DNA from: Thiomargarita sp.
GTDB lineage: Bacteria; Pseudomonadota; Gammaproteobacteria; Beggiatoales; Beggiatoaceae
Direction of reading: 5' to 3'
Length of the DNA stretch: 64,000 bases
NCBI GenBank assembly: GCA_020721005.1
Contig: DYNP01000002.1
Location: 62,001-126,000, forward strand
Position numbers and translations under genes: made by a program. Shown piece by piece: positions 28,480 to 43,369 of the stretch (within the stretch, counting starts at the first letter, position 1; each line of letters begins with the position of its first letter). Below the pieces are notes generated by a model. It did not search any database and was not told the DNA's origin. It saw only the letters and a list, made by a program, of their open reading frames with translations.

Positions 28480-29883
28480 ATGAACCAACAAAAATATATT
28501 TGGATATCTTTGGTATCCATTTCGATGTCAGTATGGGTTACGTTTGCCCAGGCTCAACAGGCTGACCCGGTACTAAAATGTGACAGTCCTGCTCAATTGG
28601 ATGAGAACAAAAATATTCATATCCCATGCGCAGTTTATGAAGGACAAGTGTTTGAAGTTACCTTGGAGCATAAGGTAGGTGAGGATGGCACTGAACAATG
28701 GGAATTGCCGATTGATAACGTTAAAAAGGGTTCCTGTGCTGAGCGCAAAAGTGTGTGTGCTGCGGTAGACGGTTCTGGAAATACCTACTTTGAAGCATTA
28801 GATATAGACGGCACTGTCCATACTGGGTTACTGGCAATCAGCGATACGAGTTCAAATACGTGGAAATGGCAGGTTTTGGAAACTGCTCCCAAGTGGGACT
28901 TTAGCAACCTGATGACTGAACAGCACTCGGTAATACCTGACTTTAGCTTGTTGATTGGTTCAGATGTGCACATGGGGATTTGCGGGGATTTTGGACAGGG
29001 AGAAGTGATTCAACAAATGAAAACGGTGGCCAATGCCAACGGCAATACGGTGGGCCTTATTTTTAATGGCGATATTATTGCCACCGGCACGGCTGATCAG
29101 GGCTTACCTCTGTGGAAGGATTTACTGCAGGAACTGAATCTGCCGGTTTATGAAGGACTGGGCAATCACGACTACTTCAACTATGCCAGACTGATGAATT
29201 GCGCCACTGAGGAATTTGCAGAATGGGGAGTGGATGCTTGCACGGTCAGAGTACTTCAGTACCTAGAATCTCAAATAACCAATATCCCTCAAATGAAGTG
29301 GATCGATCCGAAGAGCCGGGCCTATGCCTTCCTACTCAACGGTTACCTATTTGTCCAATTCCTCTACTACCCTTCCTTTGAGCAAAACATCCAAGACTCT
29401 GAGTATAGTACTCAAGATTCGATACTGTGGGGAAAGAAAGTATTGGCAGCCAATGCAGTCTCTCTTAAAGCCCCAGTGGTTGTGAATGTCCATGACTACT
29501 TTACCTATTCTCATGAAATTGCGGACATTGTGTCTGGAGAAGGCGGTCAATATGTGGTCGGAGTATTTGCCGGCCACATGCATGAAGTGCGTGGATATGT
29601 GGAGCGGGTCGGAGATCCCAACCAAGTGGGGAACTATGATCTTAAAAATATCTATGGTGTGAAAGTACCTAAAGCCCAATCCGGCGCGATTCCTGTGTGG
29701 AACTCCGGCTCTATGACCCAATTGGAAAATTACTTTACTGACTGTAATACTCAAACCAATACGATCACTCGCACCACGACACGTTCCTTTTTTGAGATCA
29801 AATTGGGAGCTAAGGGATATAATCTCAAATTATGGGAAGGGGACCGGGTCAGTGCCAGTTACGTTGTAGAATGGACTTGGTAA
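28480..29883 (+). CDS. Exported calcineurin-like metallophosphoesterase
   Basis: A 467-residue protein with a signal peptide (VSISMSVWVTFAQAQQA, cut near 26). Residues ~30-140 form a separate N-terminal beta-rich part with paired cysteines. The phosphoesterase domain follows with all metal-binding motifs: GSDVHMG (D162, H164), FNGDI (D198), GNHD (N229-D231), NVHDYF (H338) and GHMH (H366, H368). It should hydrolyse a phosphomonoester or diester in the periplasm or outside the cell. The substrate is unknown. The gene ends just before a hairpin. Confidence 0.85.
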   Translation: MNQQKYIWISLVSISMSVWVTFAQAQQADPVLKCDSPAQLDENKNIHIPCAVYEGQVFEVTLEHKVGEDGTEQWELPIDNVKKGSCAERKSVCAAVDGSGNTYFEALDIDGTVHTGLLAISDTSSNTWKWQVLETAPKWDFSNLMTEQHSVIPDFSLLIGSDVHMGICGDFGQGEVIQQMKTVANANGNTVGLIFNGDIIATGTADQGLPLWKDLLQELNLPVYEGLGNHDYFNYARLMNCATEEFAEWGVDACTVRVLQYLESQITNIPQMKWIDPKSRAYAFLLNGYLFVQFLYYPSFEQNIQDSEYSTQDSILWGKKVLAANAVSLKAPVVVNVHDYFTYSHEIADIVSGEGGQYVVGVFAGHMHEVRGYVERVGDPNQVGNYDLKNIYGVKVPKAQSGAIPVWNSGSMTQLENYFTDCNTQTNTITRTTTRSFFEIKLGAKGYNLKLWEGDRVSASYVVEWTW

Positions 29884-30153: not shown

Positions 30154-31095
30154 ATGAATAGCACTTCACACTCCATTATTTGCTACGCCCCGGCAGAAAA
30201 GATTTACGCCATCATTTCAGATGTTCAACGCTGGATGGGACTTTTTGAGGTCACTCGAGAAGTCTCTATCGTTGGGACCGGAGAAAATCACCTGCTGGCC
30301 CGCATCTCTGCCAACATCAATGGAGTTGAAACCACCTGGATAACCCATCGTAAATTTCAACCCGAAATCCATGGAGTCGATTTTGAAATTCTAACTCCCA
30401 TGCCTCTCGTACAAGCCATGCGTGGACAATGGCGAGTCATTCCCTTAACCACCGGCAGTTGCCTGACTCTGGTTGAACATCATTTCACCATCAAGGCTGA
30501 TATCACAGGTTTGGTCGAAGGAATTCAGACCCGTCAAGAAGCCCTAGATTACGTGCTTCGGGCTATTCACAACAATTCTGGACATGATTTGGAACGGATC
30601 AAAGCCTTTGTGGAGCAAGATTCCCCAACTGCCAATCCACTGGCCTATCATTTTGCCATCCATAAACTTGTCGCAGCCCCGATAGCCAAAGTGTACTCCT
30701 TTCTAAGAGAAGTCAATCACTGGCCGAAACGAGTGCCACATTGTGAAGCGGTGGAAGTAAATTATGATGTGGAAGGTCGACAAGAATTTTTCATGGAAAT
30801 CTCAACTCCTCAAGGCAGAGAACGGTTTCGCAGCATTCGTATCTGTCATGACTCTACATTCTCTATCGATTACTTTCAGCCCCAACCACCCCGTGTATTG
30901 CAATTCTATAGCGGCAACTGGTTATTACACAGCGTGGCTGCGGGCACTCAAGTGACTGCCCATCGTCACATCATCATCAATCCAGAAGCCTGTCACCAAG
31001 TGTTTGGGGAAGGCAGCATCACTGATTACCAACAACGAATTGCTGCTAACATCATAGAAGCCACCGAAAAATACTTAGCCGCATCTGCTGAATAA
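30154..31095 (+). CDS. Didomain aromatase/cyclase (SRPBCC), type II polyketide-like
   Basis: A 313-residue protein made of two START/Bet v1-like (SRPBCC) halves, ~5-150 and ~163-305. Both begin with a matching strand-helix unit (APAEKIYAIISDVQRWMGLF and APIAKVYSFLREVNHWPKRV). This two-fold layout is that of didomain aromatase/cyclases such as ActVII, which close and dehydrate the first ring of C9-reduced polyketides. An AAAGGA ribosome-binding site precedes the ATG. It is the first gene of the cluster, 45 bp before the ActIII-like ketoreductase. A different SRPBCC ligand is possible, but the neighbours make the polyketide role most likely. Confidence 0.85.
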   Translation: MNSTSHSIICYAPAEKIYAIISDVQRWMGLFEVTREVSIVGTGENHLLARISANINGVETTWITHRKFQPEIHGVDFEILTPMPLVQAMRGQWRVIPLTTGSCLTLVEHHFTIKADITGLVEGIQTRQEALDYVLRAIHNNSGHDLERIKAFVEQDSPTANPLAYHFAIHKLVAAPIAKVYSFLREVNHWPKRVPHCEAVEVNYDVEGRQEFFMEISTPQGRERFRSIRICHDSTFSIDYFQPQPPRVLQFYSGNWLLHSVAAGTQVTAHRHIIINPEACHQVFGEGSITDYQQRIAANIIEATEKYLAASAE

Positions 31096-31140
31096 TTGTA
31101 GAGATTTAAACTCCCGAACCGAATAAGGAGCACAACTGAC

Positions 31141-31920
31141 ATGGGACAAACTGCCTTAATTACCGGTGCCTCAGGTGACATTGGACAAAGCATCAGCCTG
31201 AGATTGGCAGCCGCCGGCTATGACCTGATTCTGGTCAGCCGCACCTTGGAAAAACTACAAAAAACTGCGAATGAAATACACGCCCACCATTCCAACTGCC
31301 AAATTCAACTAAAAACCTGTGATGTCAGCGATCGCAACAGTGTAGCCCAACTGTTCACTGCCTTGGTGGCCGAGAAAGCTGTCATTAACGTGTTAGTGAA
31401 CTGTGCCGGAATTTCTGGAGGGGGTGTCACTGCTCAATTGGACCTCGACCTGTGGCTCAACGTTATCAATACCAATCTCAATGGGGTATTTTTTGTCACC
31501 CGGGAGGCACTGCATCACCAATTAATTCCCGCGGGTGGTAGAATTATCAATATTGCCTCCACGGGTGGAAAACAAGGCGTTATGCTCGCTGCTCCCTACA
31601 GTGCCTCCAAACATGGCGTAATCGGTTTCACCAAAGCTTTGGGACTGGAACTGGCCAAAAATCGTTCCCTGATCACGGTCAATGCAGTTTGTCCAGGATT
31701 TGTAGAATCGGAAATGGCCGTCAAAGTTCGCAAATTTTATGCCGGTCAATGGGGAGTTGAAGTGGATGAAGTGAAACGACGCATTGAAGATCGAGTCCCT
31801 CTGGGACGCTATATTGAGCCCGCAGAAGTTGCTGAAATGGTAGCTTACTTAACTTCACCCTTGGCTGCCGGAGTCACCGCCCAAGCCCTCAATGTTTGCG
31901 GTGGGTTAGGCAATTACTAA
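31141..31920 (+). CDS. Polyketide C9 ketoreductase, ActIII-like SDR
   Basis: A 259-residue short-chain dehydrogenase. It has the NADPH loop TGASGDIG (8-15), NCAGISGGG (87-95), N112, S140 in NIASTGGKQG, and the Y153-x3-K157 pair in YSASKHGVIGF. Residues ~137-170 and the last 15 (VTAQALNVCGGLGNY) are, from memory, nearly the same as actinorhodin ketoreductase, far closer than FabG. It would reduce the C9 keto group of the nascent poly-beta-ketone bound to ACP. AAGGAGC gives a strong ribosome-binding site. This gene is the best single marker that the locus is an aromatic polyketide cluster. Confidence 0.93.
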   Translation: MGQTALITGASGDIGQSISLRLAAAGYDLILVSRTLEKLQKTANEIHAHHSNCQIQLKTCDVSDRNSVAQLFTALVAEKAVINVLVNCAGISGGGVTAQLDLDLWLNVINTNLNGVFFVTREALHHQLIPAGGRIINIASTGGKQGVMLAAPYSASKHGVIGFTKALGLELAKNRSLITVNAVCPGFVESEMAVKVRKFYAGQWGVEVDEVKRRIEDRVPLGRYIEPAEVAEMVAYLTSPLAAGVTAQALNVCGGLGNY

Positions 31921-31928
31921 TCCTCTCC

Positions 31929-32083
31929 AAGGACCGACCGCCGGCCGGCTAAAGCCTCCACTCCAAGGACCTACCGCTAACCGGTTTTACCCCCCCCACC
32001 CCCCCTTGAAAAGAAGGGGGGGCTATCTCCCCCTCCTTATTAAGGAGGGGTTAGGGGTGGTTTCCCCTCCTTGTCAAGGAGGG
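31929..32083. repeat. Dispersed repeats between cluster genes
   Basis: About 31929-31966 is one reverse-orientation copy of the GGCTAAAGCCTCCACTCC element with its GACCGACCGC lead. About 31990-32083 is a second kind of repeat, C-rich then G-rich (CCCCCCTTGAAAAGAAGGGG followed by AAGGAGGGGTTAGGGGTGG), also found at 60287 and 60697. The C/G runs form a strong hairpin that could weaken readthrough from the ketoreductase to the cyclase gene. Confidence 0.75.
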
Positions 32084-32122
32084 CTCAGCGCATCTCCTAC
32101 ACTGTTATAGAACAAGTTTTTC

Positions 32123-32971
32123 ATGAATACCCCTCTGACATTTATTGACCTCAGCGTAGCAATCGACCCGACAGATTGGGAACCAATCCCAGTAAGACGA
32201 ACCGTCCTGGACCATCAAAAAGGCGCTGACCTGCTGGGCAAAAGTCTGGTTATCTACCATTCCTCCGGTCCCTGGTCAAAACTTTGGCTCCGCTTAAAAA
32301 GTCTATTCAAACCCAACATCACCCATCGTGATTTTCCGGATAAGATGGGACTGTCCTTAATGACCTATCAATTGACCACTCACACCGGTACACATGTAGA
32401 CGCCCCTTACCATTATGGTTGGCGAGAAGGGACCCGCTCGCTTCCCCCCACCATCGATGAAATACCTCTGTCTTGGTATTATGGGGACGGCGTGTTATTG
32501 GACTTTAGTGATCAACTGCATGACTGTGCTCCGATTACCCAACTCGAAGTGGAACAAAAATTAAATACCATTGGCTATCAACTACAACCTGCAGACATTG
32601 TTCTCATTGCGACTGGCGCCGATAAACACCTCGGCACCCAACGCTATTTTACCCAGTATCGAGCGGTCAGTCGAGAAGCGGTAAATTGGCTGCTAGACCA
32701 AGGCATTCAAGTCATTGGGGTGGATGCTTTCAGTTTTGACCCCCCTTTCATGAAAATGCTCCTCCATTATCAAAATACCGGTGACAAAGAAAGCCTGTGG
32801 CCAGCCCACTTTTTAGGCCGCGATCGCCCTTACCTACAAATTGAACGCCTCACCAATTTACAGGGGCTGACAAAACCCTTTGGATTTAAAATTTCCTGTT
32901 TTCCCATCAAACTGAAAGGTGCGGATGCTGCTTGGAGTCGAGTGGTCGCCATATTTCCACCTGAGGAATAA
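32123..32971 (+). CDS. Cyclase family protein (PF04199)
   Basis: A 282-residue protein of the kynurenine-formamidase/putative-cyclase fold. The metal-binding signature HTGTHVDAPYHY is at residues 87-98 and a second conserved block, GVDAFSFDPP, lies near 200. The family contains amide hydrolases and proteins annotated as polyketide cyclases. Its place between the ketoreductase and the lipocalin-like genes suggests a role in a later ring closure or product hydrolysis, but this is inference. It is preceded by repeats rather than a clear ribosome-binding site. Confidence 0.82.
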   Translation: MNTPLTFIDLSVAIDPTDWEPIPVRRTVLDHQKGADLLGKSLVIYHSSGPWSKLWLRLKSLFKPNITHRDFPDKMGLSLMTYQLTTHTGTHVDAPYHYGWREGTRSLPPTIDEIPLSWYYGDGVLLDFSDQLHDCAPITQLEVEQKLNTIGYQLQPADIVLIATGADKHLGTQRYFTQYRAVSREAVNWLLDQGIQVIGVDAFSFDPPFMKMLLHYQNTGDKESLWPAHFLGRDRPYLQIERLTNLQGLTKPFGFKISCFPIKLKGADAAWSRVVAIFPPEE

Positions 32972-33085
32972 CATCCTCTAAGGGAATCTCTGAATTCCTT
33001 TCCCTAAGTAGAACCTCGGGGTACTTTTTTTATCCCCTTTTAGAAAGAATTCTGGAACAGTTAAAACACTTTTACGAGGACTTAA

Positions 33086-33511
33086 ATGGTCAAGCAACGC
33101 CTGATTGGAACTTGGAAACTGGTCACGGTCGAAACTGTTTATGCCAATGGAGAAAGAATTCCCACCTTTACTGATCCTCAGGGCATTCTCATCTATCAGG
33201 CAAATAACATTATGTCCGTACAAATTGCGGGGAGCTATACAGAAAAAGTATTAGAGAACTCAGCAACTCAAGTCACCGCAGAATCCAAAAAAACCATCCC
33301 TACTTTTCGAGCCTATTGGGGCAAATATACCATTGACGAAACTCAACACACGGTAACTCATCATATTTTGGGCGGTTCCCCTCACATCACCGATTTGGAA
33401 GAAAAAAGAGAATTTGTCTTTCAAGACCATTCCTTAATTCTGAGAATGAAGGACAAGCCCTGGCTACCCACAGGCTCTTCTGTGGACGTGACTTGGCACC
33501 CATGGACCTAA
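33086..33511 (+). CDS. Lipocalin-like domain protein, copy 1
   Basis: A 141-residue protein with the PF13924-type pattern: LIGTWKLVTVETVYANGER at the start, a central FRAYWGKYTIDE and a HHILGG segment. It has no signal peptide. GAGGA precedes the ATG. Copy 2 at 33905-34327 keeps the same landmarks (GTWKLV, FRAYWARYEIDE, HHFLGGSEH). Small beta-barrels of this family may bind hydrophobic small molecules, so binding or tailoring of the polyketide is possible; no catalytic role is proven from sequence. Confidence 0.78.
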   Translation: MVKQRLIGTWKLVTVETVYANGERIPTFTDPQGILIYQANNIMSVQIAGSYTEKVLENSATQVTAESKKTIPTFRAYWGKYTIDETQHTVTHHILGGSPHITDLEEKREFVFQDHSLILRMKDKPWLPTGSSVDVTWHPWT

Positions 33512-33544
33512 CATGGTCCTAAATTAAATTCTTACAATAGACCT

Positions 33545-33757
33545 CTGGAGTGGAGGCTTTAGCCGGAGTGGGGGCTACTGGAAAGTAAGTTTGGAGTGGA
33601 GACTTTAGCCGGTCAGCCGTAGGCATCACCCCACATGCACAAATTGCAAGGACCGACCGCTGGCCGGCTAAAGCCTCCACTCCAAAGGCCTACCGCTGGC
33701 CGGCTAAAGCCTCCACTCCAAGGACCGACCGCTGGCCGGCTAAAGCCTCCACTCCAA
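33545..33757. repeat. Array of dispersed ~37-bp repeat in both orientations
   Basis: Two forward copies (GGAGTGGAGGCTTTAGCCGG) lie near 33547 and 33592, and three tandem reverse copies run from about 33648 to 33757 at 37-bp spacing. Between them is a ~30-bp spacer (CAGCCGTAGGCATCACCCCA) also seen at 60590. The opposed copies can fold into a long cruciform. The apparent ORF with LKPPLQ repeats is just this DNA read in frame. The array separates the two lipocalin-like genes. Confidence 0.85.
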
Positions 33758-33904
33758 ATCACATACTTTTGCAAGAGGTCTAATCAAGAACTTGACTCCA
33801 AAGAAATTCTCTTCTTTTCCTGAGGAGAGACACATAAATTTCACCTCAACCAGTTAGAATAACGTAAAGTCATCGTTTAACTCACAACATAAGGAGAATA
33901 TCTT

Positions 33905-34327
33905 TTGAAACACCCAATTCATGGAACTTGGAAACTGGTCGACATGAAAAATTATTTTGCCGACGGCACCGTTTTGAACACCTTCCAAGATTCATTCGAT
34001 GGCATCAGCATTTACACTGAAAACAATCTCGCCGTCCTATTTGTTGTTGGACAAACGTCTGATGCTGTTTTGGCTAGATCGCCGGTGGCAGCCCCCGAAG
34101 AAGTGAGAAAACGCAACTTTAGAGCCTATTGGGCTCGTTATGAGATAGATGAAACCGCCCAAGTCGTTCGCCATCATTTTCTTGGAGGATCAGAACACCT
34201 GCAAGCCATTGAGGAACGAGCCCTACGATTTGAGGGGTCTCAACGCATGATTCTAACCAAACGCAATGAACGTTACTTGGCTGCTGGTGGATATGCCGAA
34301 AGTGTCTATGAGCGTTGGACTCCGTAA
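33905..34327 (+). CDS. Lipocalin-like domain protein, copy 2
   Basis: A 140-residue paralogue of the protein at 33086. It starts at a TTG (33905), supported by AAGGAG at 33890-33895; no ATG fits the conserved N-terminus HGTWKLVDMKNYFADGT. The C-terminus ends in SVYERWTP, like VTWHPWT in copy 1. Divergence is large, so the duplication is old or the copies have different ligands. It lies 30 bp before the amidohydrolase gene. Confidence 0.78.
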   Translation: MKHPIHGTWKLVDMKNYFADGTVLNTFQDSFDGISIYTENNLAVLFVVGQTSDAVLARSPVAAPEEVRKRNFRAYWARYEIDETAQVVRHHFLGGSEHLQAIEERALRFEGSQRMILTKRNERYLAAGGYAESVYERWTP

Positions 34328-34357
34328 TTTCCTAACTTTTACCACTGGGAACTCAGC

Positions 34358-35386
34358 GTGACTCAGCCTTTGGTCAATGCTCACACTCATCTTGAGCTGT
34401 CAGACAAATCTCAACTGCTGCCGGAACCCAGTGCGGAATTTTCCCGATGGCTGACCCAAGTGATTCGCAGCAACGCTCAACGCACTCCAGAAACTGTGCG
34501 GGCGGCCTGTGCATTTGGAATTGCCAAACTACAATCCGCCGGCACCACCCATATAGGTGATATATCTTCCACCGGTCTCAGTGTGGAACTGTTGATCCAC
34601 AGTGGTTTACAAGGCATTGTTTGGTTGGAAATGTTGGCCACCACTCGGGACTCAGGATTGGCAAGACTGGAAACCATGAAAAGCCAAATTCATCATTTGC
34701 GAGAATTGGCGGCCCATTCCCCTATCCAGATTGGCGCCACCTTGCATTCCACTTACTCCATTCATCCCAGTTTGTGGGATCCCGTGTTGCGATGGGTAGA
34801 GACTGAATCTCTACCCCTGTGCATCCATGCTGCAGAATCTCCTTCGGAATGGGAAGTGTTGGTGCATGGTACCGGTCCATTTAGGGAATTTGAAGGTCAA
34901 CTGGTTGCCTCCCAAATGTCTCTTTCTCCCAAAATGAAGAACTTCATGGCTTACCTGTTGGCTATTCTTCCCCCACAATTGCGGAAAATGATTGCCAAAG
35001 GGGGCATTCCTTACCACTTGCCTGCCCCCATGAAGAGCCCAATTGCCTATTTGGAACAACAGGGCGCTTTGGCTTTTAAACCCCTGCTGGTTCACGCTGT
35101 GCAGGTTTCTGACGAAGATATCCAACTGATCAAAGGCAGAGGAGCCGCAGTAATCCACTGTCCACGCTCCAATCAACGCCTAAAATGTGGGAGAATGCCT
35201 TTGGAGAAGTATTTAGCGGACAGAGTGCCAGTGCTGATGGGCACCGATTCCCTAACCTCCAGTCCCTCTCTTGATGTTACCGAAGAAGCCACTTTCGCCT
35301 ATGCCTTGCATGAAGATAAAGTGTCTCCCCCGGTCATTGAAGCCTTACTCCGGGACACTGTCACATTTATGAACTATTGCCATTGA
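34358..35386 (+). CDS. Amidohydrolase-superfamily protein, compact form
   Basis: A 342-residue protein starting at a GTG with GGGA about 8 nt upstream. It keeps the metal-binding landmarks: NAHTHLELS at the very N-terminus, CIHAAES, LVHAVQVSDEDI, HCPRSNQRLKCGRMP and GTDSLTSSPSLDV. The order resembles SsnA/chlorohydrolase-type deaminases. It begins directly at the first metal motif, so the beta-sandwich domain usual on both sides is missing or very short. It may hydrolyse or deaminate a precursor or tailor the product; the substrate is unknown. Confidence 0.8.
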   Translation: MTQPLVNAHTHLELSDKSQLLPEPSAEFSRWLTQVIRSNAQRTPETVRAACAFGIAKLQSAGTTHIGDISSTGLSVELLIHSGLQGIVWLEMLATTRDSGLARLETMKSQIHHLRELAAHSPIQIGATLHSTYSIHPSLWDPVLRWVETESLPLCIHAAESPSEWEVLVHGTGPFREFEGQLVASQMSLSPKMKNFMAYLLAILPPQLRKMIAKGGIPYHLPAPMKSPIAYLEQQGALAFKPLLVHAVQVSDEDIQLIKGRGAAVIHCPRSNQRLKCGRMPLEKYLADRVPVLMGTDSLTSSPSLDVTEEATFAYALHEDKVSPPVIEALLRDTVTFMNYCH

Positions 35387-35414
35387 ACTCGCCTATTTAG
35401 GCGTTTGGGATATA

Positions 35415-37121
35415 ATGAGAATGAAACCCACTATTATTCAAAGATTCAAACAACAGGCCACTCAATTTCCTGAAAAAAATGCCTATGTTCTCCTAACCGA
35501 AGGAGATACAAAACATTCGATCTCTTTTGCAAACTTGGATCAACAAGCTGAAGCGATGGCTGCCCGAATTCAGACTCGGCTGCCTCTCGGTGCCCCCATT
35601 GTGCTTTGTCTGCCCCCAGGCATTGAGTTCAAGGTCTCGTGGTGGGCCTGTTTGTATGCAGGTATGGTTATCATTCCCTTACCTCCTCCCGAGCTTACAG
35701 CCGATCCCAAAACTTTTACTGTGGGGCCTATTTTTGAGGACACACAAGCCAAAACTATCTTGACCACAGACAGTTTAAAAGCTTATTTGAAACAGGCCTT
35801 AAGTGACCTGCCTTACTTTGACAGCTTAACTATTCTCTCCAAGGAAGATTTGCCCACGGTCCCAGCCAGTCACTGGCAATTGCCTGCGTCCAATGAAGAC
35901 ACAGTGATGTTTGGATCCTACACTTCTGGCACCACCGGTCAACCCAAGGGAGTCATTATCACCCAAGGCAATTTATTGGCCTCGGTTCAAGACATTTCGA
36001 CCAATTTGGGACTTAACCAGGATCAAGCCCTGTGTACTTTGTTCAATCATTACCACATCATTATGGCTCTTTGGGAAATGGCCATCAATTTGAATGGGGG
36101 ACAAAGTGTTTATTTACCGATAGCTCTGGTATTAAAAAAACCCATTCTGTTGCTAAAAACCCTGTCCGACTATCAAGTCAACATTTTGATGGGCGTTAAT
36201 CTTACCTTAGATCTGTGTGTCAATAGAATTCAAGACCATGAATTGTCTGGAATTAATCTCAGTCACTTGAGACTACTGGTCGGTGGAGACAAAGTAAAAA
36301 CCAGCCTGTTGGAACAATTTGTGGCCCGCTATAGGAACTATGGTTTTCGGCAAAATGCAGTGCAAAGTCGCTATGGTCAAGCAGAAGGATTTGGCTTTAC
36401 TTCCAGCATTCTTGATGAATTCCCTCGCATTGAATCCATCAGTGAGGAAGCCCTGGCTGACAATCTCATTCTTCCTCCCCAAAATGATCACGATCGCATC
36501 GACTTGGTGACCAGTGGAATTCCCTTGAGCAGTGTCACTCTCCGCATTGTTGATCCCATCACTTTGGAACCTCGTGGGGTAAAACAAGTGGGGGAAGTTT
36601 GGATAAAAGGCGATGCAGTGGGCAAAGGCTATTGGAATCGTCCCGAAAAAACTGCCGAAACATTTAATTTCTATCTTTCTACCAATCATGAGGGACCATT
36701 CTTAAGGACTGGTGACATAGGTTATTTAAATGGTCGTGGGGAATTGTTTTTGGTGGGGCGTCTTAAGGAAAGATTGACCATCAATGGACGTTACTATTAC
36801 CCAGAACCTATTGAAAATACAACTAAAAGTGCTCATCCACTTCTTGAGGCCAAGGCTTATGCTTTTGCCGCTTTCACCATCAGTCCCCAGTACCGAGATG
36901 AATTGGTGGTTGCCGTGGAACTTGAAGACTTGCCTTCTGACGACTTAGTGGAGCAGCTGAAATTGGCGGTTTCGGAAAAGATTCGACAAGTCCATCATAT
37001 CGAACTTTATCAATTGCTGGTGCTGGGAAAGAATGCTTTGCCTCGTACCAAAACTGGCAAGATCAAGAGAAACCAATGTGCAAACTTATTAGTCCCAACA
37101 ACTGGAGGTAAAAACCCATGA
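35415..37121 (+). CDS. AMP-dependent acyl ligase, FAAL-like
   Basis: A 568-residue adenylate-forming enzyme. P-loop-like motif YTSGTTGQPKG is at 169-179, the core motif LRTGDIGYLNGRGELFLVGR follows, and the catalytic lysine is K549 in RTKTGKIKR. The IIPLPPPE segment and the SRYGQAEGFG motif recall fatty acyl-AMP ligases, which load an acyl group onto an ACP instead of CoA. Next to a type II polyketide ACP this suggests activation of a starter acid. It overlaps the DUF697 gene by 4 bp. Confidence 0.85.
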   Translation: MRMKPTIIQRFKQQATQFPEKNAYVLLTEGDTKHSISFANLDQQAEAMAARIQTRLPLGAPIVLCLPPGIEFKVSWWACLYAGMVIIPLPPPELTADPKTFTVGPIFEDTQAKTILTTDSLKAYLKQALSDLPYFDSLTILSKEDLPTVPASHWQLPASNEDTVMFGSYTSGTTGQPKGVIITQGNLLASVQDISTNLGLNQDQALCTLFNHYHIIMALWEMAINLNGGQSVYLPIALVLKKPILLLKTLSDYQVNILMGVNLTLDLCVNRIQDHELSGINLSHLRLLVGGDKVKTSLLEQFVARYRNYGFRQNAVQSRYGQAEGFGFTSSILDEFPRIESISEEALADNLILPPQNDHDRIDLVTSGIPLSSVTLRIVDPITLEPRGVKQVGEVWIKGDAVGKGYWNRPEKTAETFNFYLSTNHEGPFLRTGDIGYLNGRGELFLVGRLKERLTINGRYYYPEPIENTTKSAHPLLEAKAYAFAAFTISPQYRDELVVAVELEDLPSDDLVEQLKLAVSEKIRQVHHIELYQLLVLGKNALPRTKTGKIKRNQCANLLVPTTGGKNP

Positions 37122-37546
37122 CTGAAGCAGTTATGAATGAAGCGCCCCTGCCCCTGTTGTCAACACAACCTACCTCCGTAGAAATAAGAAAGGAACGAAA
37201 GCAAAAGGCCGTGAATTTGGTCAATCTCTATGCCTTGGCATCGGTTGGAACCATCGTGGTGCCGGGACCTTTGGTAACTCAAGTTTTGATGAGTGGAGTG
37301 TTAGCCAAGTTATTAAGCGATCTCAGTGTGATTTACAAAGTTAAGCTAACTGACCATAAAATCAAGGTCTTAATAGCTGCTGTATTGGGAGGTGCTCATT
37401 CAACTTGGATCAGTTTTTATATTGCTCGATACATTGACTTTGTGCCCGGCATTAACATCGTGGCCAAGGGAGCTGTTTCAAGTGCTCTCATCTATTTCAT
37501 AGGTCAATTGTTTATTCACCACTTTGAATCTGGGGCTTGGCGGTAG
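37118..37546 (+). CDS. DUF697-like membrane protein
   Basis: A 142-residue protein with GGAGG about 10 nt before the ATG and a 4-bp overlap with the ligase gene. After a charged N-terminus (~1-40) there are about three hydrophobic stretches: LYALASVGTIVVPGPLVTQV, VLIAAVLGGAHSTWISFYIA and AVSSALIYFIGQLFI. The order P-PLVTQ...MSGVLAKLL...FVPG-IN matches DUF697 (PF05128), usually fused to GTPases or stand-alone. It has no GTPase part. A membrane tether for the cluster's enzymes is a guess. Confidence 0.72.
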   Translation: MTEAVMNEAPLPLLSTQPTSVEIRKERKQKAVNLVNLYALASVGTIVVPGPLVTQVLMSGVLAKLLSDLSVIYKVKLTDHKIKVLIAAVLGGAHSTWISFYIARYIDFVPGINIVAKGAVSSALIYFIGQLFIHHFESGAWR

Positions 37547-37643
37547 GCATTTGCGAATGGCCAGTTTCCAACATGGATAAAATAATGACTGGGCTATTTT
37601 ATCCAACAAATATAACTCTTTGTCAATTAGAGGTCACTTTCCA

Positions 37644-38090
37644 ATGAAATCTAAAATTCACCTTTTAGCGGCTTTCACAGCCATATTGACCATTGCCACC
37701 TTTTGGATCTCAACTGTGGTGGTTGAACTGGGAGGCGATCCCCAGGCCATTGCTTACGTAAAAAACTTGATTGTCATGCCAGGCCTATTCATTCTCGTTC
37801 CTGCCATTGCGATTACTGGTATGACCGGTTTTTTCTTGTCTCAGTCGAGAAGTGGGCGCTTGATAGACAGTAAGAAGAAAAGAATGCCTTTCATCGCAGC
37901 CAATGGTCTGCTCATACTTTTACCTTCTGCAATTATGCTCAATTTATGGGCTGCAGATGGCAATTTCACTACCCAGTTTTATATTGTACAGGGACTGGAA
38001 TTGGTTGCAGGACCGGTCAACTTGATTCTGATGGGACTGAGCGTGCGAGATGGGTTTAAAATGAAAGGACGCTTTAGAACCAAAAGTTAG
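37644..38090 (+). CDS. Small four-helix membrane protein, unknown function
   Basis: About 148 residues from the ATG at 37644, which follows AGAGG; a TTG eight codons upstream is less likely. Four hydrophobic segments are clear: IHLLAAFTAILTIATFWIST, MPGLFILVPAIAITGMTGFF, MPFIAANGLLILLPSAIM and YIVQGLELVAGPVNLILMG. Positive residues (SQSRSGRLIDSKKKR) sit between helices 2 and 3, suggesting a cytoplasmic loop. I do not recognise a family. Its position between DUF697 and ACP genes links it to the cluster. Confidence 0.7.
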   Translation: MKSKIHLLAAFTAILTIATFWISTVVVELGGDPQAIAYVKNLIVMPGLFILVPAIAITGMTGFFLSQSRSGRLIDSKKKRMPFIAANGLLILLPSAIMLNLWAADGNFTTQFYIVQGLELVAGPVNLILMGLSVRDGFKMKGRFRTKS

Positions 38091-38264
38091 ACAAAAAAAC
38101 TCCTCACTCAAAAATGGAGTAAAAAATTTCTTCACTGACTCGATTGGCTAGACTTTCAAAAAGTTGCCTGATCAGGGGACTGTGGTTTTCTCTTCCACGT
38201 TAGAAAGAGACTATCTTACTTATTGAGATCAAGACCAACAATTAGGGGACCAACAACAAAAGTT

Positions 38265-38495
38265 ATGATGACGGAACAATTTAAAACTGTTTTTAATATG
38301 TTGGAAATCGAACCCAACGAAATCACAAATGACATGACTCTTGAGGATGATATTGGCATGGATTCTCAGGAACTGGTTGAACTCCACTGTGCCATTGAAA
38401 AGGTCATGGGGATTAAACTGCCTGAACAGCTCATCAAGAAATCAATGACAGTAGAAGAGTTAATGAAGACCATTGATGAAGTTTGTAATAACTAA
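38265..38495 (+). CDS. Acyl carrier protein of the polyketide cluster
   Basis: A 76-residue protein. The frame extends to a TTG at 38223, but the acyl carrier fold begins at the double ATG (38265/38268). The phosphopantetheine site is S34 in GMDSQELVEL, where Q replaces the usual L after DS. The flanking LEDDIGMDS and IKLPEQ segments fit helix 2 and 3 of ACPs. It lies 190 bp upstream of KS-alpha. It should carry the growing chain, and possibly the starter loaded by the FAAL-like ligase. A phosphopantetheinyl transferase is not in the window. Confidence 0.88.
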   Translation: MMTEQFKTVFNMLEIEPNEITNDMTLEDDIGMDSQELVELHCAIEKVMGIKLPEQLIKKSMTVEELMKTIDEVCNN

Positions 38496-38684
38496 AGGAT
38501 AGAAGACTTACTCAGGAATGATGGCCCTTTATCAATCTCTCCTTCTTAACTTGAAGTGAGTAACAACCAAGAACACTGGCAAATTCCAATAGGGTTGCCA
38601 GTTTTGCACAAGTAGACATTTGGGACCTTATAGATCTCTAAGGGGGGTTCTGGTCCCAATTAAATTGTTCAGGAACTAAAAATA

Positions 38685-39971
38685 ATGCGTATGAATTCGA
38701 CTGAGAGGACCGTTGTTGTAACGGGCATGTCTACCATCAATCCTCTGGGGCAAGATCTTACAGAATTCTGGACCGCTTGTAAGAAAGGAACTTCCGGGGT
38801 GAAAAAAATCGAAGAGTTTTACATTCCAGATGAAATGAGTCAGATGGCAGGTATCGTTGAACATCTGGATCTCTCTTCCTTAAATTTATCCCCGGAACAA
38901 CTTGAGAATTACGATCGGAGCTTACTTTTTGCTCTCAAGTCCAGCCATGATGCCCTTCAACACTCTGATTTAAAATTAGATTCTCGTCTCAACTTGACCA
39001 ATAGCCGTTGGGGAGTATTTGTTGCCAACGCCATCTCCCAAATCTCTAACATGGAAAAAAGTTTCTGCCAACAATCAGCCAAGGGCATTTACCCTTTGGC
39101 GCCAATAAGAAAAAACAGTGGCCGTCGGCCCAACAGCTACTTTTTTAATACCACAAATGCGGAAATTGTCAATTACTTCAATTTAGGCTGCGAACAAGTC
39201 ACGGTGGTAACCGGATGCACCGGGGGACTGGATGCCATTGGCCATGCCCTGCAAGCCATTCGCAAAGGTAAAGTGGATATAGCCATCACTGGCTCAACTG
39301 AAGCCCCAATTACCCCCTTGGTCGTCGCTTCCTTTAGCAAGATTGGCGCAACTTCCACCCGCAACTATGATCCTGGTACGGCCAGTCGTCCTTTCGACGT
39401 CGATCGCGACGGCTTTGTGCTGGCTGAAGGTTGTGGCATTCTCATTCTGGAATCTTTGGAGCACGCTCAAAAACGAGGTGCTAAAATCTATGCCGTCATT
39501 TCTGGAATTGGCAGCGTCAACAACTGCTATCACATGACTGATATTCCAGAGCCAGGTGAATCCATTGCCAAAGCCAGTTTGGAAGCCATCAAAGACGCCA
39601 AGATTGAACCAGAGCAAATTGATTTTATCAATGCCCATGGCTCTTCCACTCCCCAAAATGATGTGGCAGAATCCAATGCCTTTCACCGCATGTTTGGTCC
39701 CAAAGCTCGCGACATTCCAGTGACTTCGATCAAATCTCAATTGGGACATACCCTGTCCTCAGCAACCAGCATTGAAGTCATCAGTGCCGTCTTATCTCTC
39801 AATGACAATATCATTCCCCCCACCATCAACCTCTGTTCCCAAGACAGTCGTTGTGAATTGGATGTGGTGGCCAATAAGGCACGCACCTCCCCAGTCAATT
39901 GTGTACTTAAAACCAGCAGTGGATTCTCCGGTATTCATTCCAGTCTAATCATTGAGAGATGGGTTGCTTAA
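38685..39971 (+). CDS. Ketosynthase alpha of a type II PKS
   Basis: A 428-residue beta-ketoacyl synthase with the full catalytic set: C178 in VVTGCTGGLDAIGHA, H318 in NAHGSSTPQND, K350 and H355 in SIKSQLGHTLSSA. The sequence round the cysteine, TGCT-GLDAIG, is that of actinomycete type II KS-alpha (TGCTSGLD) rather than FabF (TACATG). It would catalyse decarboxylative Claisen condensation with malonyl-ACP as a heterodimer with the product of the next gene. The reading frames of the two overlap slightly, the usual coupling of KS-alpha and CLF. The start (38685 or ATG at 38691) is open. Confidence 0.93.
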   Translation: MRMNSTERTVVVTGMSTINPLGQDLTEFWTACKKGTSGVKKIEEFYIPDEMSQMAGIVEHLDLSSLNLSPEQLENYDRSLLFALKSSHDALQHSDLKLDSRLNLTNSRWGVFVANAISQISNMEKSFCQQSAKGIYPLAPIRKNSGRRPNSYFFNTTNAEIVNYFNLGCEQVTVVTGCTGGLDAIGHALQAIRKGKVDIAITGSTEAPITPLVVASFSKIGATSTRNYDPGTASRPFDVDRDGFVLAEGCGILILESLEHAQKRGAKIYAVISGIGSVNNCYHMTDIPEPGESIAKASLEAIKDAKIEPEQIDFINAHGSSTPQNDVAESNAFHRMFGPKARDIPVTSIKSQLGHTLSSATSIEVISAVLSLNDNIIPPTINLCSQDSRCELDVVANKARTSPVNCVLKTSSGFSGIHSSLIIERWVA

Positions 39972-41161
39972 ACCAAATGAACAAAAATAAAAATTATACT
40001 ATAACAGGTTATGGAATTTGTGTGGCTAAGGGCGGCAACCGTGCCGATTTTTGGGAACTGTTGTGTCGGAATGAGACTGCTTTTTCAGATTACCACTTGT
40101 TTGGACCAGATCATCCTCCACAGACAGTTGCTAAGATCAACAATCAAGATATTCAACACGGTCTCACCAAACGACAACTCAAAAAATTGGACCGTTTTAC
40201 TATTTTGGGTATCGCTGCCACTCGCCAAGTCCTTCAAACTTCACAATTTCCTTTGGAGAATGAAGAGTTACGGTCCCAATGTGGAATTTTACTGGGGAAC
40301 AACACTGGTGGTTGGGGATTTGTAGAACCTCAGATGGCCCCGTTATACGCTTCAGGAATGGAAACTCTCAGTCCCTATGTTGCAACCGCTTGGTTTCCCA
40401 CTGCAGTGCAGGGAGAAGTTTCCATATTATTTGGGTTAGGGGGTCACAGTAAAACCTATTCCGCAGAAAACATCAGCGTGGGTTTTGCCTTTGAGCAAGC
40501 CTTAGAATTGTTACAAGAAGGGGTGTTAAGCAGTTGTTTAGTCGGCGGTTCAGAAGCGCCTATCACCCAACTGGTTTACAATGCCTGCATGTCCAGCGGC
40601 CTGCTCTCTGAAACGGGAAAATATGAACCCTACACTTCTCAAGCTCAAGGCAGTCTCTTAGGGGAAGGCGCTGCTCTATTCATGTTAGAATCCAAAGCGC
40701 AAGCCAAGCAACGTGGGGCAATAATTGGAGCAACAATTGAAGGCATTGGCAAGGGTGCCAATTTTGTAGAATCGATGCGCAACAGTTTGGCCCAAGCGCA
40801 AAAAGTGGCCAAGGACGTTGACTACATCATATTAAGTGCCAGGGGCACTATGCCAGAAGATCAAGAAGAATATGCAGCAATTGCCCAAGTGTTTGCCGAC
40901 CATCCTCAAATTCTCATGAGTGCCCCAAAAACCAAATATGGTAATTTGCTGGGCGCCAGCATGGCCATTGACACAGTAACTGCTTGTTTGGCCTTGGAAA
41001 AACAAATGGTCCCACCCACTTATGCTTCCAAATCAACAATTTTGCCTCCCCCGGTGGGCCAACACGTGGTGGACGTTCCCAAATCAGCACCCTTAAACAA
41101 CATCCTTATCAATGGACAAGATAACTATGGACAATGTTTAACGCTGTTGATTTCCAACTAA
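39959..41161 (+). CDS. Chain-length factor (KS-beta) of the type II PKS
   Basis: A 400-residue ketosynthase-fold protein whose catalytic residues are all replaced. By alignment to KS-alpha through SEAPIT, position C178 becomes N171 (SAENISVGFAFE). The NAHG histidine becomes R in LSARGTMPEDQE, and the GH histidine becomes N in KYGNLLGASMA. Conserved structural motifs (GGSEAPIT, LGEGAALFMLE) remain. This is the hallmark of a chain-length factor, which sets the number of condensations. Classic CLFs carry Q at the cysteine position, so N is unusual. A start at ATG 39977 would remove the 13-bp overlap with KS-alpha. Confidence 0.88.
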   Translation: MGCLNQMNKNKNYTITGYGICVAKGGNRADFWELLCRNETAFSDYHLFGPDHPPQTVAKINNQDIQHGLTKRQLKKLDRFTILGIAATRQVLQTSQFPLENEELRSQCGILLGNNTGGWGFVEPQMAPLYASGMETLSPYVATAWFPTAVQGEVSILFGLGGHSKTYSAENISVGFAFEQALELLQEGVLSSCLVGGSEAPITQLVYNACMSSGLLSETGKYEPYTSQAQGSLLGEGAALFMLESKAQAKQRGAIIGATIEGIGKGANFVESMRNSLAQAQKVAKDVDYIILSARGTMPEDQEEYAAIAQVFADHPQILMSAPKTKYGNLLGASMAIDTVTACLALEKQMVPPTYASKSTILPPPVGQHVVDVPKSAPLNNILINGQDNYGQCLTLLISN

Positions 41162-41173
41162 ATTGGGCTCACT

Positions 41174-43369
41174 ATGTTAGTCACTCTTCTTGTCATCAGT
41201 AAATTGACTGCCTATGGGGCAGCTTCCTATGCTGGGGTGAAATTGTATCAGCAGAAAAACAAGGTATTTGCATCTCAGACCCCAACTGCCCCACCGAATG
41301 TTGCAGAAGATCCTCAACCCTCCCAAATTAAGTTTCCTTTGGCTAATTTGACAATCGGTCCTGATTTGGCAAATAAAATCAAATCCATTATCAATTCCAA
41401 ACTTAAGCCTCCACCGGCTTCCAAACTTAAACCCTCACCAAGCTCCAAGGTATCCGTCCACAAACCCCAAACTCTTTCCAATCAAAGGACCGCCATGCCC
41501 GACCATGAACAATGGTCGGCCGTGCTTGACTTTCGAACCAATTTGGGACTGGTGGCTCTGGGCAGCTCAGTTTCCTCCATGGCTCTTTCCGCCCCCCTAT
41601 TGACCTATTACAGTGCGGGTCTGATGGTATGGGGAGGTGCTTTTTTTTGGAAATACATGTTCATCAAATTAAGAGAGGAACAAAAAGTCTCTTCCGAAAC
41701 TGTCATTGTCAGTTTGAGCATTATGTGCTTAGCTTCTGGACAGATTACGGCTTCCAGTTTGGCCCTGATTTTCGCCTCAATGGCTGACCGTTTACAACTG
41801 AAAACCGAAGATAACACCCGTAAAAAACTCTTACACTTGTTTGATCAACAATTGGGAACTGTTTGGGTAGTTAAAGAAGGCGTGGAATTGAAAACCCCTC
41901 TGGACCAACTGCAAGCTGAAGACATCATTGCCATTCATACCGGAGAAATGATCCCGGTGGATGCCATTATTACCGAAGGCTTTATCAGCGTCGATCAACA
42001 CGTTCTCACAGGGGAATCACAACCGGTAGACAAGGGCATTGGGGATGAAATTTTTGCCTCCACCTTGGCAATTACCGGGAAAGCTTATGCCAAAGTCATC
42101 AAAATGGGCAAGGACACTGTGATTGCTCAAGTGGCTGATATATTGGACAATACCTTACAATACACTCAGCAAAATATTCAAGCTCGATCTGCCCAATTTG
42201 CCGACAATCAAGCCGCCCCAGTTTTAGGGACCACAGCTGCCCTGCTCCTGTTGACCAATTTCTACACGGCCACCTCTTTCATCATTTCTTGGTCTCCTGG
42301 AAAAGTAAAAATTCTTTCCTCCATAGCCATGCTCAATCATCTGCGCCTTGCTTCAGAAGGAGGAATTTTGATCAAGGATGGTCGAGCTTTGGAACAATTT
42401 AAACATATTGACGTGGTTGTTTTTGACAAAACCGGCACTTTGACCAATAAACAACCTGAAGTTGGGAAAATTTTAGCCTGTTCAAATTTTAGCGAACTGG
42501 AAATTTTAACTTATACCGCTGCTGCAGAAGCCAATTTAACCCATCCCATTGCCAAAGCCATTCTACAAAAAGCCAAGGACAACCACATTGCTCTGCCAAC
42601 CCAGGAAGAAGTTTCTGAATACCAAATTGGCTATGGCATTCGCATGGGCATCAATGGCAAAATCATTCATGTTGGCAGTAAACGCTTCATGGAACAACAA
42701 AATATTCCAATTCCCCAACTCATTCAAGATGCCTATGAACGCTTTCATGAATCCGGTAATTCTGTAGTCTTTGCGGCCATGGACAACCAATTGATGGGAA
42801 TCATTGAACTTCGAACCACGGTGAGAAAGGAAGCGGTGGAGATTATCCGTTCATTACGGAAAAATGGCATCAGCCAAATTGCCATTGTTTCTGGAGACCA
42901 CGAAGAACCCACCCGCAATCTTGCTGAACAACTGGGGGCTGATGACTATGTGGCAGAAGCTTTACCTCAAGATAAAATAAACTATATCAAGAAGTTACAA
43001 GCAGAATCTAAAGTTGTCTGTTTCGTAGGTGATGGAGTCAATGATTCTCTGGCGCTTAAACAAGCTCAAGTCAGTATTTCCATGACGGGTGCTTCTAACA
43101 TTGCCACAGAAACTGCCCAGATCATTCTCATGAAAGGAGATTTGTCCAGCATGACCCATTTATCCTATCTGAGTAAGAGTTTAAATGAGAACATTAACCG
43201 CAATATGGTCATCGCCTCTTGGGTACCTGGAATTGTTGGCACCGGCGCAGCCTTACTCCTAAACGTAAATGCCTTACCGATTATCCTATTTGGGACCGTT
43301 TGTTTAGGGATAGGATTTGGCAATACAGCCCTACCTCTGTTAACTCACAGTTCGGAGAAGAAGAATTGA
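41174..43369 (+). CDS. P1B-like P-type ATPase lacking the CPC metal motif
   Basis: A 731-residue membrane ATPase. It has the actuator loop TGES (279-282), phosphorylation site D418 in FDKTGTLT, the THPIAKAI histidine-proline of P1B ATPases and GDGVNDSLAL, so the catalytic cycle looks intact. Instead of the membrane CPC/SPC metal site it has SWSPGKV (S374-P375-G376), with no cysteine. There is no N-terminal heavy-metal domain; a proline/lysine-rich segment (~35-110) stands in its place. It starts 12 bp after the chain-length factor, so it belongs to the polyketide transcript. The cargo could be a product, a lipid or a non-thiol metal ion. Confidence 0.87.
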   Translation: MLVTLLVISKLTAYGAASYAGVKLYQQKNKVFASQTPTAPPNVAEDPQPSQIKFPLANLTIGPDLANKIKSIINSKLKPPPASKLKPSPSSKVSVHKPQTLSNQRTAMPDHEQWSAVLDFRTNLGLVALGSSVSSMALSAPLLTYYSAGLMVWGGAFFWKYMFIKLREEQKVSSETVIVSLSIMCLASGQITASSLALIFASMADRLQLKTEDNTRKKLLHLFDQQLGTVWVVKEGVELKTPLDQLQAEDIIAIHTGEMIPVDAIITEGFISVDQHVLTGESQPVDKGIGDEIFASTLAITGKAYAKVIKMGKDTVIAQVADILDNTLQYTQQNIQARSAQFADNQAAPVLGTTAALLLLTNFYTATSFIISWSPGKVKILSSIAMLNHLRLASEGGILIKDGRALEQFKHIDVVVFDKTGTLTNKQPEVGKILACSNFSELEILTYTAAAEANLTHPIAKAILQKAKDNHIALPTQEEVSEYQIGYGIRMGINGKIIHVGSKRFMEQQNIPIPQLIQDAYERFHESGNSVVFAAMDNQLMGIIELRTTVRKEAVEIIRSLRKNGISQIAIVSGDHEEPTRNLAEQLGADDYVAEALPQDKINYIKKLQAESKVVCFVGDGVNDSLALKQAQVSISMTGASNIATETAQIILMKGDLSSMTHLSYLSKSLNENINRNMVIASWVPGIVGTGAALLLNVNALPIILFGTVCLGIGFGNTALPLLTHSSEKKN

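Follow-up and report, generated by a model that had tools for sequence, protein, structure and literature searches.

A putative type II polyketide synthase locus of apparently mixed ancestry in a Thiomargarita genome

Does a run of thirteen genes in a Thiomargarita genome encode a pathway to an aromatic polyketide, and where did its parts come from? The run lies within a 64-kb stretch of DNA (GenBank assembly GCA_020721005.1, contig DYNP01000002.1, positions 62,001 to 126,000; hereafter the window) from a genome assembled into 133 contigs (4.05 Mb, 99.7% complete). It spans positions 30154-43369, where a preliminary description had placed all thirteen plus-strand open reading frames (ORFs), and encodes, in this order, a didomain SRPBCC protein, a ketoreductase of the short-chain dehydrogenase/reductase (SDR) family, a PF04199 protein, two Lipocalin_5-like proteins, an amidohydrolase, an AMP ligase, a DUF697-like protein, a small membrane protein, an acyl carrier protein (ACP), a ketosynthase (KS, or KS-alpha), a chain length factor (CLF, or KS-beta), and a P-type ATPase. 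These genes very probably constitute a horizontally assembled type II polyketide synthase (PKS) locus, the predicted product of which is a C9-reduced aromatic polyketide.

The KS, CLF, and ACP form the core of the system, in which every type II PKS sequence feature under test was found: a KS with its catalytic residues, an inactive CLF, placement of both in PKS clades, and a discrete ACP. Among solved structures the KS is closest to 6smo chain B (2.1e-91), a ‘PKS_KS domain-containing protein’ that we take to be AntD of the Photorhabdus anthraquinone (Ant) PKS, with FabF next at 2.3e-82. Aligned to E. coli FabF, the KS (motif TGCTGGLDAIG) retains Cys, His, Lys, His, and Phe at the catalytic positions, where the CLF has Asn, Ser, Lys, Asn, and Asn, having lost the catalytic Cys and both His. 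In a tree of 33 KS and CLF rows, built without aryl-polyene KSs and without two loci found later (L141 and L142), the KS belongs to the type II PKS KS clade (11 rows, support 99/98), the CLF to the CLF clade (10 rows, 100/99), and five FabF rows stand apart (99/99). Several long-branch rows are of unsure placement in this tree, namely the Staphylococcus CLF (a 325-aa protein, branch 2.52), the L. gasseri CLF and KS, a KS on contig C81 of the same genome, and the Azospirillum CLF. The ACP matches PF00550 (2e-8) and carries the attachment Ser in a GMDSQE motif; its start is probably the ATG at 38265 and not the TTG at 38223.

The enzymes expected to act on the nascent chain point in the same direction. 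The ketoreductase (KR), which ends in VTAQALNVCGGLGNY and had been described as ActIII-like, matches ActKR (1x7g) at 6.8e-78, 3sju (a chain named ‘Keto reductase’) at 5.8e-72, and the next solved SDR at 1.5e-37, ActKR leading the first SDR without a polyketide or keto reductase name by 40 orders of magnitude. In a nine-row tree, rebuilt without two very long SDR rows (L015_Azospirillum_SDR2 and L103_SDR10409, end branches 3.19 and 10), it groups in an ActIII clade (100/100) with ActKR, one Streptomyces KR, and one Azospirillum KR. Asn, Ser, Tyr, and Lys, which we take to be the catalytic tetrad, are all present in the alignment. The didomain aromatase/cyclase (ARO/CYC) matches BexL (4xrw, 1.5e-24) across residues 2-288, thus over both domains as initially proposed, and StfQ across residues 164-291. 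ActIII-type KRs and BexL-like didomain proteins are families responsible for C9 reduction and for first-ring closure and aromatisation. The assignment of the set to a C9-reduced aromatic polyketide is thus supported by the KR clade, the BexL-like didomain protein, and the KS/CLF tree, and the E-values of the KS, KR, ARO/CYC, and ACP given above exclude chance resemblance. The PF04199 protein, which together with the amidohydrolase and the small membrane protein was left unnamed in the preliminary description, holds the motif HTGTHVDAPYH, presumably a metal-binding pattern, and weakly matches kynurenine formamidase 4cog (1.3e-4). It shares 37-47% identity with its PF04199 counterparts in nine other type II PKS loci; the Pfam label of the family is putative cyclase, and its chemistry in PKS loci is inferred.

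Several observations weigh against this interpretation. NCBIfam ranks FabF first for the KS, at 382.9 of 493.75 bits, and FabG first for the KR, at 197.5 of 222, neither reaching its cut-off, and the top solved matches of the CLF are FabFs. Divergence from actinobacterial models would explain these leanings, and the question is settled by the trees: FabF is separate from the KS and CLF, and the KR sides with ActKR and not with FabG, so that the FabF/FabG origin which had been named in advance as contrary evidence is ruled out. The same model scores would favour a specialised fatty-acid or aryl-polyene-like synthase, and KS pairs whose type is unclear are frequent in bacteria other than actinomycetes according to the accessible text of PMC10132072. 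Such a synthase is nevertheless extremely unlikely given the KS/CLF and KR trees (aryl-polyene KSs not included), the lost CLF active site, the ActIII KR, the didomain ARO/CYC, the PF04199 protein, and the lack of any dehydratase domain among the 13 genes in a domain-model search, in which the sole Pfam match with an enoyl-reductase name, PF13561, is the generic SDR match of the KR. That search also detected no malonyl-CoA:ACP transacylase (MCAT), phosphopantetheinyl transferase (PPTase), priming KS, oxygenase, or regulator domains among these genes, and the locus boundaries are set by gene direction and content alone. At the Cys position, the CLF has Asn in place of the Gln of both Streptomyces CLFs (Ala, Arg, or Lys in the other members of its lineage, see below), and priming may therefore differ from that of the actinorhodin (act) system. 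Queried with the ligase, the Firmicute loci yielded ligases at just 21% identity, and the six lineage loci read with flanks gave no match; this lack of a close match in other type II PKS loci means that fatty-acyl priming may be wrong. Finally, the interpretation rests on gene content, clades, and active-site residues. A decayed or silent remnant is very unlikely in view of 13 open frames and the presence of the catalytic motifs of the KS, KR, ACP, and ATPase.

Priming of this putative aromatic PKS deserves particular attention because of the ligase, the identification of which as a fatty acyl-AMP ligase (FAAL)-like protein is supported by family matches and a characteristic insertion. Its top solved matches are 7r7f, 7r7e, and 7r7g (‘Polyketide synthase’, 8.7e-79) and 3kxw (‘Saframycin Mx1 synthetase B’, 1.8e-71), all presumably FAALs, followed by long-chain-fatty-acid-AMP ligase chains (8.1e-47 and 2.3e-43) and a 4-coumarate-CoA ligase (1e-21). 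In NCBIfam, one model for non-ribosomal peptide synthetases (NRPS)/PKS ranks first and four acyl-AMP ligase models follow, all under their cut-offs. An insertion of roughly 18-20 residues, which we take to be the FAAL-specific one, is common to 7r7f and an NRPS FAAL domain; E. coli FadD does not have it, nor do three ligases from Firmicute PKS loci. The FAAL insertion disfavours CoA ligase activity. Among the Firmicute ligases, that of L. gasseri is benzoate-CoA-ligase-like (244 bits, under cut-off), that of Apilactobacillus kunkeei, a species for which a literature search found no paper on a type II polyketide, is annotated likewise, and that of Priestia is 31% identical to the L. gasseri one. 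An AMP ligase beside a type II PKS is not odd as such. AntG has been suggested as an acyl-ACP synthetase that loads AntF, CoA ligase activity being left possible (Cummings et al., PMC6638757), and EncN of the enterocin system, likened here by description and not by sequence, is said to pass free acid to the ACP without a CoA intermediate, with aryl acid feeding described, in a 2025 review that counts EncN and AuaEII among priming enzymes (PMC12664062; both papers as far as their accessible text goes). A FAAL was seen in no other type II PKS locus examined, and by this comparison it appears to be the unusual element.

Direct acyl-ACP loading would be the simplest role for such a ligase. It comes close to an even chance, however, that the same PKS is acetate-primed and that its FAAL is AntG-like or lies outside priming altogether, activating a short acid, acting late in product acylation, or serving elsewhere. 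AntG itself supports an acetate-primed octaketide system (accessible part of PMC6638757), the six flanked lineage loci have no FAAL match, and FAAL-like domains in relatives from the same bacterial family sit mostly inside open frames of >1000 aa. The FAAL gene is embedded in the run, with 28 bp between it and the preceding amidohydrolase gene and a 4-bp overlap with the next one; this speaks for a part in the pathway, and the insertion, given what is known of the family, against a CoA ligase. A fatty acid is a plausible starter at somewhat less than even probability. More tentative is the full proposal that the FAAL loads a free fatty acid directly on the DSQE-type ACP and that a KS/CLF of chlamydial-cyanobacterial lineage, together with an ActIII KR and a didomain aromatase acquired from elsewhere, would build a lipid-tailed, C9-reduced, lipocalin-carried aromatic. 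A literature search found no report of FAAL priming of a type II PKS among the papers listed, a weak absence since it left subscription literature mostly uncovered.

Under the aromatic PKS interpretation, the steps might be as follows. The single PF01648 match found when searching the genome for a PPTase, a 260-aa protein on another contig with HetI as its best model (126.9 bits against a cut-off of 370), is the HetI/Sfp-like PPTase that would activate the ACP. An acyl starter would reach the ACP or the KS, most likely through the FAAL by adenylation of a free acid and direct transfer to the ACP, and be extended by the KS/CLF with malonyl units, assuming a supply through the FabD of fatty-acid synthesis. 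The KR would then, as its clade strongly suggests, reduce the C9 ketone, the ARO/CYC would close and aromatise the first ring, and the PF04199 enzyme might catalyse a later cyclisation or hydrolytic release. The lipocalins may conceivably bind or shuttle a hydrophobic intermediate or the product.

As to origin, the parts of the locus resemble those of two different groups of loci. A genome scan with the KS, using one genome per species, returned nine loci with relatives, three of them at ≥55% identity: one in a Richelia metagenome-assembled genome (MAG; L017) and two in Chlamydiota MAGs (L018 and L019). Plasmid searches added Staphylococcus haemolyticus (L014, 47%) and Azospirillum brasilense (L015, 44%), and a gammaproteobacterial genome (G211) holds a KS fragment at 61%. 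The KSs of the window, Richelia, Staphylococcus, the two Chlamydiota, and G211 form a clade (100/100), as do their CLFs (100/99). The ACP motif DSQE occurs in all seven ACPs of this lineage (window, L014, L017, L018, L019, L141, and L142), versus DSTE or DSL in four outside it. PF04199 is present in all six other lineage loci with flanks (9-31 kb read per locus, 2.6 kb for L016 of G211) and in three of three Firmicute loci (L104, L108, L109), of which L108 was located by a PF04199 search and hence is no independent evidence, L104 and L109 having been reached through the CLF. Identities between the window and the Richelia, Chlamydiota (L018, L019, L141, L142), and S. haemolyticus loci amount to 47-58% for the KS, 38-44% for the CLF (44% in Richelia, only 167 columns covered in L014), and 41-47% for PF04199. 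These loci differ in having no match to the ActIII KR or the FAAL and in their own extras, an ACP-SRPBCC fusion in five of them (Richelia and Chlamydiota) and, in the four from Chlamydiota, genes for a radical SAM protein and a FAD oxidoreductase.

The KR, not seen in DSQE-lineage loci with the KR query, has ActIII-like partners among non-actinobacterial loci in Azospirillum (61%) and in a type I PKS locus of Crinalium (48%; a locus found via PF04199), and its best match in the whole genomes G211, G768, G769, and G770 reaches 41%. The Azospirillum plasmid cluster (NZ_CP012917) also has the best full-length locus match of the ARO/CYC, an SRPBCC protein at 28% over 297 columns, and a relative of the small membrane protein (48%). 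It is unlike the window in its DSTE ACP motif, in having no PF04199 or FAAL match, and in its PPTase, four annotated antibiotic biosynthesis monooxygenases, and RND efflux genes. Because the KS, CLF, ACP, and PF04199 on the one hand and the KR, ARO/CYC, and membrane protein on the other match different loci, the locus looks like two lineages joined together, and by these comparisons it appears to join a reducing pair (KR and ARO/CYC) to a core whose other members, where read, are without it.

Among known systems, the actinorhodin-type PKS shares the ActIII KR, didomain ARO/CYC, KS, CLF, and ACP, and differs in the CLF residue, in its Streptomyces KS/CLF pairs, outside which the window's proteins fall in the tree, and in lacking the adjoining PF04199 and FAAL genes. 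The Ant PKS resembles ours in its Gram-negative host and in AntD, which shares the KS clade; it differs in its in-cluster PPTase, and it is unlike the present locus with its FAAL-type ligase, lipocalins, amidohydrolase, and ATPase, the comparison with AntG and the Ant cyclases and hydrolase being by description only. Our ligase probably differs from the Ant type. In the accessible text of PMC6638757, AntG is suggested to load the ACP, and AntE has Asp replacing Gln, so that it too is without Gln.

The rarity in Gram-negative bacteria claimed in the preliminary description holds near this genome. None of 24 other same-family genomes has the type II PKS (two matches at E ≤ 1e-80 are FabF by tree), two of 369 genomes sampled from the class match at E ≤ 1e-86 (this one and G211), and one of 398 from the phylum, again this one, at E ≤ 1e-95; by comparison, four of 232 Chlamydiota genomes match at E ≤ 1e-95, and Richelia itself is the single match among 339 sampled genomes of its phylum. 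On a wider scale the claim needs qualifying, non-actinobacterial type II PKSs being a known though under-studied group that has been catalogued already, with 565 non-actinobacterial CLF matches and a total of 14 phyla (accessible part of PMC10132072). A paper on Beggiatoaceae reports, in its accessible portion, one terpene and one undetermined cluster (PMC5728499). The proposed search for a conserved gene neighbourhood within the family yielded none. One flanking protein is 83% identical to its counterpart in a one-contig same-family genome, and in same-family genome G002 the flanking DUF4350 and VWA genes lie far apart, so that no empty site can be demonstrated. Locus genes have GC contents of 0.37-0.50 versus 0.436 for the window, and base composition does not clearly point to recent import.

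The related loci merit description in their own right. A conserved type II PKS locus occurs in four Chlamydiota genomes (L018:5055-12420, L019:169-7536, L141:5990-13836, and L142:8703-16458), with genes for a HutW/HemW-like radical SAM protein, the ACP-SRPBCC fusion, further SRPBCC proteins, the FAD oxidoreductase, PF04199, KS, and CLF; for single MAGs, binning error may be involved. The accessible part of a paper on chlamydiae mentions type III PKS and NRPS-like clusters, further PKS/NRPS genes, and SnoaL-like cyclases, and not type II PKS (PMC9666466). L016 (G211:C130) is a KS/CLF pair on a 2.6-kb stretch of a 2.0-Mb genome that groups inside the Chlamydiota rows, representing either a transfer or a stray contig. 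The 23.7-kb S. haemolyticus plasmid NZ_CP120084 (L014) carries a type II PKS that likewise belongs to the DSQE lineage; the genes with it are merB, one for a FAD protein resembling tryptophan halogenases, and two annotated as IS6 transposases. On a plasmid of Crinalium epipsammum (L106; NC_019733, 4632-9729), a PF04199 protein and an ActIII-like KR (45% and 48% identical to those of the window) are encoded behind a type I PKS gene, this pair thus also occurring beside a type I PKS.

The additional genes had been regarded as non-standard. Since AMP ligases and PF04199 recur in other non-actinobacterial type II PKS loci, this is only partly so. Of the two lipocalin-like proteins, 37% identical to each other, the first fits its family, whereas the second falls just below the cut-off, as does the DUF697-like protein (Table 1). 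AlphaFold models the first as a lipocalin barrel: from a three-sequence alignment, the best model has a pLDDT of 87.4, the second 86.0, and the other three 56-64, and it superposes on lipocalin 4gzv with Z 10.8 and a root-mean-square deviation of 4.4 over 102 residues. A fold search with it returned lipocalins and other small beta barrels and no functional lead. The same protein is 29% identical to a lipocalin of the Richelia locus (E 2e-13, single comparison), which puts a lipocalin in two loci of the DSQE lineage. The amidohydrolase matches the aminofutalosine deaminase model NF006269 at 2.7e-43, but its 148 bits stay far short of the cut-off of 320.

Ahead of DKTGT, the P-type ATPase carries SPG and lacks CPC. 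Relatives at E ≤ 1e-120 occur in 18 of 24 other same-family genomes versus none of 15 others, and CPC is absent from all 33 rows from 30 related loci (L061-L090) and present in 7 of 11 rows from ten comparison loci (L100 contributed none). These ATPases represent a family-specific expansion of CPx-less P1B-like enzymes (L061-L090; 41174-43369 in the window) in varied neighbourhoods, sometimes beside NRPS-like genes. Could the ATPase, the DUF697-like protein, and the membrane protein be an export or resistance module of the pathway? The ATPase gene is co-directional and begins 12 bp past the CLF gene, and FAAL-like domains (E ≤ 1e-5) occur in 6 of 30 related-ATPase loci versus none of ten hand-chosen comparison loci, a figure without genome-wide background. 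The spread of the ATPase clade across the family in varied contexts, and relatives of the membrane protein in 33 plasmid records (the listed Pantoea rows being on or beside MarR/helix-turn-helix genes), make such a module unlikely. With relatives so widespread, neither protein is taken as a dedicated PKS part: PKS specificity of the membrane protein was dropped, a dedicated role of the ATPase is unsupported, and its membership in the pathway is unproven.

Of the 12 intergenic gaps (Table 1), two are overlaps (FAAL/DUF697, 4 bp, and KS/CLF), nine measure 12-202 bp, and the widest, 393 bp, separates the lipocalin genes. A metallophosphoesterase-like gene (28480-29883) lies upstream, and MoxR and DUF4350 genes lie downstream on the opposite strand. 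In scans of the region, neither promoter-like nor terminator-like sites were commoner than in shuffled sequence; a G/C-rich hairpin is found at 32016-32033, between the KR gene and the PF04199 gene. Two more large KS-bearing ORFs (open frames of 2709 and 6323 aa; contig positions 145913 and 287536; L002 and L001) occur downstream on the same contig, about 20 and 160 kb past the window end.

Table 1. Predicted genes of the putative type II PKS locus, with window coordinates
Feature	Position	Strand	Evidence
Didomain aromatase/cyclase (SRPBCC x2)	30154..31095	+	PF03364 8e-19 in two stretches; BexL 4xrw 1.5e-24
ActIII-type C9 ketoreductase (predicted)	31141..31920	+	ActKR 1x7g 6.8e-78; ActIII clade 100/100
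PF04199 ‘cyclase’, weakly kynurenine-formamidase-like	32123..32971	+	PF04199 1.1e-32; 4cog 1.3e-4
Lipocalin-like protein 1	33086..33511	+	PF13924 9e-16; lipocalin 4gzv Z 10.8
Lipocalin-like protein 2	33905..34327	+	PF13924 24.1 bits vs cut-off 25; 37% to lipocalin-like protein 1
Amidohydrolase, distantly aminofutalosine-deaminase-like	34358..35386	+	PF01979 4.6e-19; NF006269 2.7e-43, below cut-off
FAAL-like protein, proposed acyl loader for ACP	35415..37121	+	Solved relatives; FAAL-type insertion
Small DUF697-like protein	37118..37546	+	PF05128 26.7 bits vs cut-off 27.7
Small membrane protein	37620..38090	+	48% to protein of Azospirillum PKS locus
Acyl carrier protein, GMDSQE motif	38265..38495	+	PF00550 2e-8
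Ketosynthase KS-alpha	38685..39971	+	6smo chain B 2.1e-91; KS clade 99/98; C/H/K/H/F kept
Chain length factor (KS-beta)	39959..41161	+	CLF clade 100/99; N/S/N at Cys and both His
CPx-less P-type (P1B-like) ATPase, co-directional	41174..43369	+	TIGR01525 3.7e-114

These results place a putative C9-reducing aromatic PKS core in a sulfur-oxidiser-like gammaproteobacterium; tetracyclines and many pigments are aromatic polyketides. Its KS, CLF, ACP, and PF04199 set belongs to a well-supported lineage also found in Chlamydiota, a phylum outside the 14 listed with type II PKS in the accessible text of PMC10132072. The DSQE ACP, the KS/CLF, and the FAAL make a small set suited to in vitro testing and, if the FAAL does prime the PKS, this would be a direct route for attaching free fatty acids to aromatic polyketides of type II systems.

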